The notes below the pieces were generated by a model, which was not told where the DNA came from, did not search any database, and was given only the letters and a program-made list of their open reading frames with translations. A program made the position numbers and the translations under genes. Shown here one piece after another: positions 17,588 to 21,974 of a stretch of 64,000 bases of DNA; within the stretch, counting starts at the first letter, position 1, and each line of letters opens with the position of its first letter. The stretch is from an uncultured cyanobacterium. GTDB taxonomy: Bacteria > Cyanobacteriota > Cyanobacteriia > PCC-6307 > Cyanobiaceae. The stretch covers positions 1 to 64,000 of the forward strand of contig CAIOCZ010000165.1 in assembly GCA_903856805.1 (NCBI GenBank), written 5' to 3'.

Positions 17588-18622
17588 ATGGAGCCCGGCG
17601 CCACCCTGGCGCAGCTGGGGGAATGGGAGCTGATCCGCCGCCTGGGGGCCTTCGCCCCCCCCGGCCAGTTCCACGATGATGCGGCCCTGCTGCCGGCCGC
17701 GGACGGCAGCCGCCTGGTGGTGAATTCTGACGTGCTGGTGGAGGGGATCCACTTCAGTGACGCCACCACCGCGCCGGGGGATGTGGGTTGGCGCGCCGCC
17801 GCCGCCAACCTTTCCGATCTGGCGGCGATGGGCTGCACGGAGGTGCTGGGGCTCACGGTGGGGCTTGTCGCGCCGGCCGACACCACCTGGAGCTGGGTGG
17901 AGGGGGTCTATGGCGGCCTCAAAGAAGCGCTGGACGCCTATGGCGGGGAGCTGCTGGGGGGCGACTGCAGCGGCGGGGCCCAGCGGCTGCTGGCGATCAC
18001 GGCGATCGGACGGCTGGCGGGCGACACGGGGGCGATCCGCCGCGGCGACGGTCGTCCGGGCGACTGGCTGGTGGGCACTGGCCCCCACGGCCTGAGCCGG
18101 CTGGGGCTGGCCCTGCTGCAGGGCGACGACCCCGCGGCTGGTGCGGCGCTCGATCCAGCTTTGGTGCAACGGGCCCTTGCCGCCCATCGGCGCCCCCGGC
18201 CCCGCTTTGATGCGGTGCGGGCGCTTAGGGCCAGCCAGCCGGTGGGAGCCCCCTGGAGGGTGGGGGGGTGCGACAGCAGCGATGGCCTGGCGGCGGCGGC
18301 GGCGGCGATCGCGGCCAGCAGCGGTTGCGGGGCCCAGCTGGATCGCCGTGCCCTGCCCCTGGATCCCGCCATGGCCCCCCTGCCTCTGGCGGAGGCCTGG
18401 TGCCTGGGGGGCGGTGAGGACTTCGAGCTGGTGCTGGCCCTGGAGCCGGCCTGGGCCCAGGCCCTCGTGGCGGCTCAGCCAGGCTCCTCGGTGATCGGTG
18501 CGCTGGTGGTGGGCCCGGCGGGGGCCCTGGGGTGGGCCAGCGGGGAGGCCTGGCCTGGGGCGGATGGGGAAATCGGTGAGGTCAGGGGCTACAGCCACTT
18601 CGCTTGGGTGGTCAGAGGATGA
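17588..18622 (+). CDS. thiL: Thiamine-monophosphate kinase
   Basis: A 344-residue ATP-dependent kinase for the last step of thiamine diphosphate synthesis. AIRS-like fold with the metal- and phosphate-binding motifs FHDDAALL, NSDVLVEGIHF, NLSDLAAMG, LLGGDCSG and CDSSDGL, and GGGEDFELVLAL near the end. Start at ATG 17588, 7 bp after the cyclophilin stop. No TPP riboswitch is visible before it. Its end faces the pyruvate-kinase-like gene with a 25-bp gap. Length normal. Confidence 0.95.
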   Translation: MEPGATLAQLGEWELIRRLGAFAPPGQFHDDAALLPAADGSRLVVNSDVLVEGIHFSDATTAPGDVGWRAAAANLSDLAAMGCTEVLGLTVGLVAPADTTWSWVEGVYGGLKEALDAYGGELLGGDCSGGAQRLLAITAIGRLAGDTGAIRRGDGRPGDWLVGTGPHGLSRLGLALLQGDDPAAGAALDPALVQRALAAHRRPRPRFDAVRALRASQPVGAPWRVGGCDSSDGLAAAAAAIAASSGCGAQLDRRALPLDPAMAPLPLAEAWCLGGGEDFELVLALEPAWAQALVAAQPGSSVIGALVVGPAGALGWASGEAWPGADGEIGEVRGYSHFAWVVRG

Positions 18623-18647
18623 AGGGGTGGCAGGGAAACTCCTTGGG

Positions 18648-20516
18648 TCATCGTTCGGCACTCCGTGCCAACTGCAGCTCCCGAAGTGTGGAGCGTTTTT
18701 TGGCCTGGTGGGCTTGCATGCGTCGCAGGATGTCGTCGAGAACTGCTACGGCACTGAGCACATGCGGCCCCTTGTTGAGCATGACACATTCGGCCCGATC
18801 CGCCATCGCGGCGTCCGTGATTTCGGCGCGGGAAGGCATCCCTTTCTTGGCAAGTGTTTCGAGAACTTGCGTCGCCCAGATCACGGGCACATGGGCGGCT
18901 TCGCAGATCCAGAGGATCTCCTCCTGAACCTCCGCCATGCGTTCAAAGCCACACTCGACGGCGAGGTCGCCGCGGGCAATCATCACCCCACAACACCGAG
19001 ATCGCATGGCGGTGAGAAGCATGTCAGGTAGGTTTTCAAAGCCCCTCCGAGTCTCAATCTTCAAGACAACGGCGGGTTGACGGCCTCCCAGACGCTCGAG
19101 GTTGCGCTGGAGCAATTCAAGGTCGTCCGCACAGTTGGCGAAGGAGAGTTCGATGACGTCGGCGTGCTGGGCCACGAAGGACAGGTCTTCCAGATCCTTG
19201 GCGGTGAGGGCTGGTAAATGGATGTTGCTATCGGGTAGATTAATTCCTTTGTTGGCTCGCAGTTTTTCGCCAACTAAGCGTGTCTGTGTGATTCGAATCA
19301 GGGCACGTTCGCCCTCCACCTTCTCCACCACTCCGCCAATCTTGCCCTCGTCAAACCAGATCGACTCTCCCGATCTCATGGCATCGAACACCTCTGGAAT
19401 GGAGCAGCCAATGAGGGCTGGGCTGAGGATCTGCCCAGCACTGTCGCGGCTGGCAGGGCGACCCGGAGCAAGGCTCCGCGTCAGGATGAGTTGGTCGCCC
19501 CGATGAAGAAGAATGGCATTTTCGGTGGCAGGAAGTTCCCTAACCATTCCCTCGCTTTGATTTCGCTCGTGCTTATGGCGAAGAATTGTTCCGGGGATAA
19601 CGTAGGCCGTCTGGGTTGCTTCCACCCAGCAACCGCCATGGGTTACATCGACGACAAGAAGGATCCGCTTGGAACCCCGAGCATCGGTGAACCTCACCCG
19701 TTCTCCCGGCTGGAGGCGCGCCAGCCAAGCCGCCGGGAGGGGCAGGCAGGCCTCCGCCGGTGTCGGGGAACGATGGGGGGCCGCTTGAGGAGTCAACCAG
19801 ACCCGCGCGGCAGCGATGAGGTGGCCGAAGCGATCGCGGCGGGGGCGAATTTTGATGACCGGCGGGCCCGTCTCAAGGGGCCCGGTGCGCAGCTTGGGTC
19901 CGGCCAGATCCATGACCAAGCGGCACGGGCGCCCCAGCGCTTGCTCGGCCCGTCTCAGCTGATCCACCATTCTCGTCCAGGTCCTTACATCGTCATGGGC
20001 GCAGTTGATCCGCATGCAATCCATGCCAGCTTGCATCAGGTCGCGAACGAGAGTGGAATCGTCCGCCGCCTCGCTTGGCATGGTGACCATGATTCGAACA
20101 CTGCGTCCGGGCGTCGCGGGGCCTAACAGCGTCTCGGTATGGTCCCCCAGTAACCGCTCTCCGGTCCCGAAAGTCATGACGGTGCTCTCCGTCGTGGTCG
20201 CTGAAAGGGGACAGCCTGTGAGTTGGTGAAGGATGTCCAGGACTGCATCGACCGTGGCCAGGACGTGGGACTCAGCTCGCCCGAGGGAGGAAAGCCCGAG
20301 CTTGGCTAAACGCCATTGCAGGGGTCGGAGATCGCGACGCCGGAGGACGAGGTAATGGACGAGATTGCGAGCGCTTTCTCGGTAGTTGGGGTGCACCTGG
20401 CTGAGACATGCCATGGCTTGTTCCGCATCGTCGACCATGTGGGCGCGAATGGCCATGAGTTCATGCTGAATGTCCCTGAGATCGTGATGTTCTGACTCGG
20501 AATTTTTAGCGTTCAT
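18648..20516 (-). CDS. Pyruvate-kinase-like protein with duplicated B-like domain, no C domain
   Basis: A 622-residue divergent relative of pyruvate kinase. Residues 1-125 are a helical extension. The barrel begins at VRIMVTM (140-145) with the PK strand RINCAHDD (169-176, usually RxNxSHG) and DLAGPKLRTG (203-212). It is then interrupted: two segments that resemble the lid (B) domain follow, at about 271-312 (GERVRFTD...TQT) and 383-421 (GESIWFDEGKI...TQT), separated by a linker. The barrel resumes with KGINLPD, Lys486-Ile-Glu488, ARGDL (514-518) and ATQVLE (548-553), so Mg and phosphate residues are kept, though MLSGET reads MLNKGP. The allosteric C domain is missing. Lacking tests, pyruvate kinase activity is uncertain. 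Confidence 0.8.
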   Translation of the reverse strand: MNAKNSESEHHDLRDIQHELMAIRAHMVDDAEQAMACLSQVHPNYRESARNLVHYLVLRRRDLRPLQWRLAKLGLSSLGRAESHVLATVDAVLDILHQLTGCPLSATTTESTVMTFGTGERLLGDHTETLLGPATPGRSVRIMVTMPSEAADDSTLVRDLMQAGMDCMRINCAHDDVRTWTRMVDQLRRAEQALGRPCRLVMDLAGPKLRTGPLETGPPVIKIRPRRDRFGHLIAAARVWLTPQAAPHRSPTPAEACLPLPAAWLARLQPGERVRFTDARGSKRILLVVDVTHGGCWVEATQTAYVIPGTILRHKHERNQSEGMVRELPATENAILLHRGDQLILTRSLAPGRPASRDSAGQILSPALIGCSIPEVFDAMRSGESIWFDEGKIGGVVEKVEGERALIRITQTRLVGEKLRANKGINLPDSNIHLPALTAKDLEDLSFVAQHADVIELSFANCADDLELLQRNLERLGGRQPAVVLKIETRRGFENLPDMLLTAMRSRCCGVMIARGDLAVECGFERMAEVQEEILWICEAAHVPVIWATQVLETLAKKGMPSRAEITDAAMADRAECVMLNKGPHVLSAVAVLDDILRRMQAHQAKKRSTLRELQLARSAER

Positions 20517-21125
20517 GTCGATGGAAACACAGTGTCTTGGGCCCAGCTGCGGTCGTAGGAATCTGCGGATTGTGTTGGGTCGCGCGGGTTGAAGTGACCT
20601 GGCTCAGGAACGCTGCTTGGGTCTTCATCAGAGCAGGCAGCTGTTTCTGCCATGGTGGTGGCTTGTGGCAGACAGGGCCCCAGAACCGCTCGCAATCGGG
20701 GCAATGGACGGCTGTGATGGCGCAGATCGGGGTCGGCGAAGCCCGCGCCGCGTTCAGGTTTGAGTCAGAAAGGTTGTTGCCCTTTCAATTCCACGGATCG
20801 GGATTTGAGATGGCGAAGCCGCTGGTCGGATATTTGAATCATGACGAGGCCGAAGATCGGCAATGGCAATGATGCTATGGATTCCTCCGCATGGATTATC
20901 AAATCAGTCGCTAATCAGTGCATTGCTATAGGGGGGCTTGATGTCGTTGGTTGCTCAGAAGAGGTCTTGAACCCCTTTGTTGCTTTGAGGACGATTTAAT
21001 GCTGTTGCGCCTGTCGAGCAGTCCTGCCGTTGATCGAGGTGCCTCCCAACCCAGAACCCGTCTCTGACGTTTTGGGTTGAGGGGCATGAGGGCCATTGCC
21101 AGTGTTAACGCAAATCGGCGGGTGG
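20517..21125. other. Long intergenic region
   Basis: 609 bp with no convincing gene. A minus-strand frame from ATG 20653 codes for 46 residues and ends in an ATGA overlap with the pyruvate-kinase-like start, which could be a leader peptide, but it lacks a ribosome-binding site. A plus-strand frame at 20537-20872 has no support. Near 21050-21080 an inverted pair AACCCA...TGGGTT might form a weak hairpin downstream of the AroE-like gene. Positions 20860-20930 are relatively AT-rich. Confidence 0.5.
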
Positions 21126-21974
21126 TTACTCCCCCAGGGCGTCCGCCACCGCCCGCTGGAACACCTCTTCCTCCGGAACGATGCCGGTCCAGAGGGTGAA
21201 CAACTGGATCGCCAGTTGCACCAGCATCTCGACGCCATCGACCACGCCGCAGCCATGCTCCTTGGCCATCTGCAGAAACGGCGTGAGGCGCGGATTGGTG
21301 ATCACATCCACCGCCAGGCAGCCGGGATCGACGCTGCTCCAGTCGATCGGTACGGCTTCGAGCTCCGGGGCGCAGCCCAGGTGGGTGGCATTCATCAGCA
21401 CCGAGGTGCCGGCGGGCACCTGTACCGGTGAATTCCATGCCTGCCAATGGGCAGGCACGCCACTTACGGCCGTGATCCGTTCAGCTACCTCCCGGCCCTG
21501 GTCCTCGCGGCGGGTCACCAGGGTGAGCTGGGCCGCCCCGGCCCAGGCGATTTCCACCGCCATCGCCCGACCGGCACCACCAGCTCCGAGCATCACCACA
21601 TGCTGGTCCTTGAGGCGGCGCTGTTTCTCAATTGCCTTGACCACCCCCTTGCCATCGTTGTTATGGCCGATCAGACGCCCGTTTTCGATGGTGAGGTAGT
21701 TCGCCGCACCGATCGCCTTCACATCGTCATCGATGTCATCGAGCAGGGGAATCACCTCCACCTTGTAGGGCACCGTGATGCCCACGCCGCGATACCCCAG
21801 GGGTGCCAGGCCCGCCACCGCCAGCCGCAACAACGCAACGGACGGCACATCGCTTTTCCAGAACTGCCAGTTGAGTCCGTAATGGGCGTACACCGCATCA
21901 AACATCCGATCAATCGGGTTTTCCGCCACCGGATGCCCAAGCATCCCGGTCATCTGTTTCTGAGGAGGAATCAT
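21126..21974 (-). CDS. AroE-type shikimate/quinate dehydrogenase-like protein, atypical
   Basis: A 282-residue protein with both AroE domains: a substrate domain with VPYK (Lys71), GAANYL (Asn92) and NNDGKG (Asp107), and a Rossmann domain with GAGGAGRA (130-137) and LVTRR. The usual N-terminal GxPxxHSxSP motif that holds the shikimate carboxylate reads GHPVAENPIDRMF here, so both serines are absent (Asn and Ile by alignment). Such 'AENP' forms occur in a separate AroE-like branch; the substrate is probably not plain shikimate. ATG 21974 overlaps the stop of the glycosyltransferase (ATGA), so the pair is translationally coupled. Another aroE is presumably elsewhere. Confidence 0.82.
   Translation of the reverse strand: MIPPQKQMTGMLGHPVAENPIDRMFDAVYAHYGLNWQFWKSDVPSVALLRLAVAGLAPLGYRGVGITVPYKVEVIPLLDDIDDDVKAIGAANYLTIENGRLIGHNNDGKGVVKAIEKQRRLKDQHVVMLGAGGAGRAMAVEIAWAGAAQLTLVTRREDQGREVAERITAVSGVPAHWQAWNSPVQVPAGTSVLMNATHLGCAPELEAVPIDWSSVDPGCLAVDVITNPRLTPFLQMAKEHGCGVVDGVEMLVQLAIQLFTLWTGIVPEEEVFQRAVADALGE

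Follow-up and report, generated by a model that had tools for sequence, protein, structure and literature searches.

A pyruvate kinase family protein with tandem B domains and no C domain in an uncultured cyanobacterium

We analysed a 64,000-nucleotide stretch of DNA (the window) from an uncultured cyanobacterium of the family Cyanobiaceae (contig CAIOCZ010000165.1, positions 1 to 64,000). One gene in the window encodes a pyruvate-kinase-like protein in which the B domain, or lid, seems to be present twice. Is the lid truly doubled, and is the protein that carries it a working pyruvate kinase, a kinase of some other substrate or a non-catalytic regulator? An earlier note, made from the sequence alone, placed the gene at 18648-20516; these coordinates are correct and the gene lies on the minus strand. 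Its features are:

18648..20516, minus strand: pyruvate kinase, family NF011314/PRK14725, 622 amino acids (stop included in the coordinates)
20118..20516, minus strand: helical front domain, residues 1-133 (from AF2 secondary structure and conservation)
19866..20105, minus strand: first part of the barrel, residues 138-217, with R169, N171, H174, D203, K208 and R210 (from Pfam, alignment and AF2 fold comparison)
19521..19865, minus strand: B1, the extra lid domain, residues 218-332, with conserved P225, G231, D278, R280, R284 and Y305 (from hhalign, shuffles and the AF2 fold of the domain alone)
19227..19520, minus strand: B2, the usual lid domain, residues 333-430, with D389, E390, G391 and KGIN at 423-426 (from alignment with the canonical enzyme L001 and hhalign)
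18693..19226, minus strand: second part of the barrel, residues 431-608, with K486, E488, R515, D517, T549, R563 and MLNKG at 579-583, followed by no C domain (from Pfam and AF2)

Profile searches clearly place the protein, by its sequence, in NF011314/PRK14725 ('pyruvate kinase'), an already annotated family. The match scores 832.8 bits against a curated cutoff of 642, and aligns residues 3-619 with positions 5-612 of the 614 in the profile. The general pyruvate kinase model TIGR01064 matches in two stretches at 216.7 bits, under its cutoff of 306.4. A Pfam scan detects PF00224 at 167.9 bits (gathering score 30), split into two pieces (profile 2-86 and 107-315) with about 150 residues in between; the best piece covers residues 368-581. 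The same scan of the 622-amino-acid protein finds no PK_C domain, and only 14 residues follow the end of the barrel (about residue 608). The suggested lack of an allosteric C domain is thus borne out.

The full-length AF2 model (79 rows) has a pLDDT of 92.0 and a pTM of 0.88. When it was compared with the PDB by VIA-align, every one among the 50 matches listed was a pyruvate kinase. Residues 136-608 superpose on these enzymes, and the best among the matches listed is PKM2 (6v74_C, Z 35.2, rmsd 1.7 over 313 residues). The B domain is placed between barrel strand 3 and helix 3, as in the pyruvate kinase superfamily. A helical front of 125 residues had been proposed and is present in the model (helices 3-33, 43-59, 64-72, 85-100 and 116-131). 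It is conserved at 90% or more in 21 of 123 positions (15-137). Searched by sequence against the PDB, the front domain and B1 yield no convincing relatives.

Alignment with relatives and with the canonical enzyme of the same genome (L001) identifies residues 333-430 as the usual B domain and residues 218-332 as the surplus one. The family profiles of the two segments align to each other with a score of 32.8 (hhalign E 1.3e-5, probability 80.6). For comparison, B1 scores 8-11 against four other parts of the protein, and B2 scores 9-13 against three of them. None of 200 column shuffles reached the B1-B2 score (mean 11.6, maximum 23.0), and a reversed profile gave 10.5. The earlier note had read GERVRFTDARG (from 271) and GESIWFDEGKI (from 383) as copies of one module; these modules are real and stand in the register it proposed. 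The shared 'TQT' that it took as a mark of the module is peculiar to this sequence and unconserved, the family consensus of the second being ITxAR.

With all rows included, the B1 profile matches B2 best (score 32.2), then the B domain of family members that have a single lid (single-B members; 29.5) and last canonical B domains (19.1); the maxima of 60 shuffles for each comparison are 18.3, 18.2 and 16.2, respectively. This order of scores suggests that B1 is a copy of the lid of the subfamily itself. B2 matches canonical B domains at E 1.7e-21 (hhalign).

B1 folded alone (79 rows) gives a confident AF2 model (pLDDT 90.3, pTM 0.83). In agreement with the proposed duplication, this model aligns to pyruvate kinases at their B domain (E. 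coli 79-165) in all 50 VIA-align matches listed from the PDB; the best Z among them is 9.8, with an rmsd of 2.5 over 82 residues. A Foldseek search with the same model returned weak E-values (0.048 and up) with eIF2-gamma barrels mixed in, and the B1 sequence profile found no pyruvate kinase in the PDB. The DDG lid motif of B2 (DEG/DDG) is DAR in B1, where D278 and R280 are conserved. Across the family, 6 of 119 positions of B1 are at least 90% conserved, vs 15 of 98 in B2.

The architecture is therefore confirmed as a helical front, one pyruvate kinase barrel, tandem B domains and no C domain. In the open-access literature that we searched, we found no description of a doubled lid in pyruvate kinase. 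The tandem lid thus appears undescribed in that literature, within an annotated family that is itself known but barely studied.

We examined catalytic residues in 84 two-B rows (the window protein and 83 from named records, chosen by similarity to it). K486, E488, R515, D517, T549, Q550, R563 and the NKG of MLNKG are identical in 84/84 rows. R169 and N171 are kept in 83 (one gap) and K208 in 82 (two have R). In the window protein, the catalytic site is intact at each of the 12 positions checked, consistent with the earlier observation that the barrel signatures and the Mg/phosphate residues are present. We take the roles of these residues from rabbit muscle pyruvate kinase: K486 as the acid/base lysine, E488 and D517 as metal ligands, T549, and the arginines as phosphate-binding.

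The earlier note had also considered that the protein is a non-catalytic regulator, a pseudo-enzyme whose doubled lid senses a ligand. The intact site and the invariance of the catalytic set in the sampled family argue against this reading for the window protein. The genus offers some material for it. Among 37 genomes of the genus (the window's included; several assemblies are incomplete), 16 have an intact two-B gene, six have a damaged or split copy (G006, G008, G013, G014, G018 and G034) and 15 have none. In-frame deletions, different in each copy, affect the final part of the barrel in four of the damaged copies (L021 in G018, L022 in G006, L023 in G013 and L025 in G008), and the last three of these lack the catalytic lysine as well. 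The reading frame remains open in all four. Such copies, which lack catalytic residues and barrel strands, could be pseudo-enzymes or genes whose decay is in progress; from their sequences, they look like decaying genes. Damaged-active pairs (32) have a median Ka/Ks of 0.449, and active-active pairs (28) one of 0.302. Values below 1 in pairs with damaged copies can be read in favour of a retained non-catalytic role, yet the higher ratio is as in relaxed decay. We thus regard a pseudo-enzyme as very unlikely in the window. Damage to the gene in 6 of the 22 carriers in the genus means that it can be dispensed with.

A second suggestion was that the enzyme phosphorylates a different substrate, another enol-phosphate or phosphorylated compound, by the same chemistry with altered specificity. 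Two replaced motifs would reflect such a change: the canonical NxSHG is changed at positions 76 and 78 (NCAHDD), and MLSGET is replaced by MLNKGP. Both replacements are indeed present; they are fixed across the sampled family and mark the whole subfamily, not this protein. Fixation of the motifs favours altered specificity, as does the presence of a normal pyruvate kinase in carriers. A full-length canonical enzyme is also encoded in 31 of 32 genomes examined (the window genome among them), the exception being the draft genome behind L034. The ordinary pyk about which the earlier note had asked was found in the window genome, with a PF00224 match of 412.9 bits over the whole profile.

A characterized enzyme, Corynebacterium glutamicum Pyk2 (NCgl2809), bears on the substrate. 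We searched 14 control genomes with the NF011314 profile at a threshold of E <= 1e-60; it matched in two, Deinobacterium chartae and C. glutamicum, and was absent in the other 12. For canonical pyruvate kinases of the relatives sampled, E-values against this profile are mostly about 1e-43 to 1e-55. Pyk2 is reported to be a 67.6 kDa protein with a 120-residue extra N-terminal sequence and barrel-like segments at 128-213 and 346-606 (PMC5112673). By these reported positions its barrel spans 479 residues from start to end; in the window protein the span is about 470, and single-B members have some 110 fewer. We infer from this span and from its size that Pyk2 carries both lids. The genome match and the reported dimensions make Pyk2 an apparent member of the NF011314 family. 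Pyk2 is reported to be active on PEP and to stand in for the normal enzyme, Pyk1, in vivo (PMC5112673). A single-B member also adjoins lactate dehydrogenase and phosphoglycerate mutase on two Nostoc plasmids, which likewise argues against another substrate. The retained catalytic residues, the passed NCBI equivalog cutoff and the use of PEP by Pyk2 leave the suggestion unsupported, and we judge a different substrate to be improbable.

Overall, the two-B architecture proposed in the earlier note holds and its functional suggestions do not, so that its interpretation is supported in part. To judge from its residues and from Pyk2, the window protein most probably works as a pyruvate kinase whose catalysis is ordinary and whose lid is unusual. 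Very probably it is an accessory enzyme, gained by horizontal transfer, that belongs to the PRK14725/NF011314 subfamily and uses ordinary PEP-to-ADP chemistry with B2 as the working lid. Analogy with C. glutamicum Pyk2 would make it a back-up or stress enzyme.

In the proposed mechanism, phosphate would be moved from PEP to ADP by ordinary pyruvate kinase chemistry. The acid/base K486, the metal ligands E488 and D517, T549 and the arginines that bind phosphate all lie in the barrel; the working lid would be B2. B1 interrupts the chain on its way from barrel strand 3 to the lid, so that the first tether of the lid passes via a second small beta barrel. Our guess is that B1 might tune lid movement or regulation.

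The family is scattered. In our sample of the cyanobacterial phylum, 35 of 292 genomes contain a member at E <= 1e-60; the photosystem II proteins encoded in the window genome mark its source as a cyanobacterium. The two-B form occurs in the window's genus and in one further genome of that sample (G310). In the remaining genomes the match lacks the insert, and every locus retrieved from them is single-B. In Actinomycetota (the phylum of the source of L103), 6 of 296 genomes contain a member, five of them two-B and one single-B. B1 is thus found in distant phyla. A glycolytic enzyme has in this way spread among distant bacteria, often on plasmids, alongside a resident copy.

We built trees from the barrel and B2 only (81 rows and 60 rows), leaving out damaged copies from the genus and fragments. 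The subfamily separates from canonical enzymes in both trees. The single-B state requires at least three changes, a count unaffected by the mislabelling as canonical of L019 (81-row tree) and L056 (60-row tree) in our motif test, which does affect the 'two' and 'canon' counts. A single origin of that state was recovered in 0/200 bootstrap trees (60-row tree), and one single-B clade was rejected by the AU test (p 0.004). In these trees, whose root inside the subfamily is left free, the simplest history would start from an ancestor with two B domains and involve loss of B1 more than once.

The window copy falls outside its own genus. In the 60-row tree its nearest relatives are a gammaproteobacterial MAG (84% identity over tree columns) and Planctomycetes (support 98/88), and the other copies of the genus form a separate clade without it (support 100/99). 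Holding the window and genus copies together was rejected moderately (AU p 0.033), for a group named after the tree was seen. The GC3 of the window pyruvate kinase is 0.677, vs 0.784-0.873 in five nearby genes measured. The gene sits between thiL and an AroE-like gene, and four near relatives match the window on both flanks with no pyruvate kinase in between.

Near relatives differ in the length of the stretch from thiL to the AroE-like gene (about 18601-21127 in the window), which runs from about 1.4 to 4.8 kb. In L200-L203, five ORFs within or beside it were scanned and have no Pfam match. The AroE-like gene itself (21126-21974, minus strand) scores 19.5 bits for Shikimate_DH, under the Pfam cut-off of 24.3, and is present in 29 of 41 genomes of the genus; its product may be a divergent AroE relative.

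The position in the tree, the low GC3 and the variable spot that holds no pyruvate kinase in relatives indicate that the window copy was probably acquired by horizontal transfer. Contamination or misassembly, by which a gammaproteobacterial or planctomycete gene would have come to lie on a cyanobacterial contig, predicts the same nearest relatives and the same contrast in GC3. It fits poorly with the place of the gene within a 64-kb stretch, flanked by thiL and the AroE-like gene, which lie close to each other in near relatives too, and with a stated assembly contamination of 0.1%. We consider it highly improbable.

Gene neighbourhood was tried as a guide to function and rejected, there being no conserved neighbour. 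Across 98 regions, no neighbour family recurred in more than five loci; our simple gene caller missed the pyruvate kinase gene in 12 of these, which were dropped from the count. A Pfam comparison of 114 adjacent genes with 114 random distant genes (of 370 from the same loci) found no family in more than three members of either set. Acetate kinase and glycogen phosphorylase each occur twice among adjacent genes, too few to count. Neighbours vary and include pstSCAB in Hymenobacter, acetyl-CoA hydrolase and phbB in Marinobacter, and cbb3-type oxidase and ion transporters in Sphingobium and Novosphingobium. No lactate dehydrogenase, as in an ldhA-pyk2-like pair, was found among the scanned genes beside pyruvate kinase in actinobacterial G387, G427 and G445. 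The window genome has no gene of the Ldh_1_N family, and coupling to lactate formation by that family is therefore inapplicable there.

Two local arrangements are observations in their own right. On Nostoc plasmids (L117:7827-11359 and L199:5803-9231), a single-B pyruvate kinase is followed by L-lactate dehydrogenase and phosphoglycerate mutase, a trio that may form a portable lower-glycolysis and lactate cassette. In two genomes of the window's genus (L146:9932-13707 and L148:1829-5694), the pyruvate kinase overlaps an upstream TrkA_N/TrkA_C gene by 1 bp, as called by the simple gene caller; the product of the latter is a possible ion-transport partner.

What, then, does the second lid do? 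By domain, Ka/Ks in active genus copies is 0.22 in the front, 0.40 and 0.18 in the two barrel parts, 0.52 in B1 and 0.28 in B2. Constraint is thus weakest in B1. This speaks against a part in catalysis; B1 may instead be regulatory or structural, or do nothing of its own. Repeated loss elsewhere implies that the extra lid is not essential. B1 could be a passive, tolerated insertion without its own function, the two-lid form being a neutral relic. The relaxed constraint (Ka/Ks and conserved positions alike) and the three or more changes that the single-B state requires fit such a relic. B1 is nevertheless still present in distant phyla, keeps P225, G231, D278, R280, R284 and Y305 across the family and has a Ka/Ks below 1. 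We regard passivity as possible, if somewhat doubtful. The idea that B1 is a lid copy turned regulatory module, with effector control shifted from the C domain to the duplicated lid, is more speculative and on balance unlikely. If true, regulation by B1 would account for FBP activation in an enzyme that has no C domain, as reported for C. glutamicum Pyk2 (PMC5112673), and the repeatedly arisen single-B members would be natural unregulated controls. The doubled lid makes the puzzle of Pyk2 activation testable by domain deletions and by the natural single-lid relatives.

Among known systems, NF011314/PRK14725 has the same architecture as the window protein, and the insertion is already part of the family profile. 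The window protein has all the features that mark the subfamily as seen here (no definition taken from the literature): the helical front, MLNKG instead of MLSGE and the missing C domain. Canonical bacterial PykF/PykA have the barrel, a B domain and the catalytic residues in common with it. They differ in having their own C domain, one B domain and no helical front, and lie apart on a long branch in the trees. Single-B members (in many cyanobacteria and on plasmids of Nostoc, Paracoccus, Skermanella, Sphingobium and Novosphingobium) resemble the window protein in their helical front, NCAHD-type motif, MLNKG and lack of a C domain. They lack B1, with 0 residues in the insert region in all 36 such rows with a full front.

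C. glutamicum Pyk2 is the characterized counterpart. By report, it resembles the window protein in its roughly 120 extra N-terminal residues and in lacking a C-terminal effector domain, yet it is activated by FBP (PMC5112673). It is described as a hexamer (431 kDa by gel filtration) that needs Mn2+ plus a monovalent cation; its S0.5 for PEP falls from 4.58 mM to 2.17 mM with FBP, ATP inhibits, and its mRNA is 14.24-fold up under oxygen deprivation (PMC5112673). A second B domain is unmentioned in the available part of that report. The monovalent-ion signature of the window protein is mixed (L113, A114, K117 and T120 in rabbit numbering). K+-dependent enzymes carry T/K/E/T and K+-independent ones L/Q/K/(L,I,V), and enzymes with K117 are mostly K+-independent (PMC12428139), although Pyk2 is K+-dependent by report (PMC5112673). 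Pyk2 differs from the window protein in belonging to another phylum and in its ldhA-pyk2 operon (PMC5112673), while the window genome is without an Ldh_1_N family gene.
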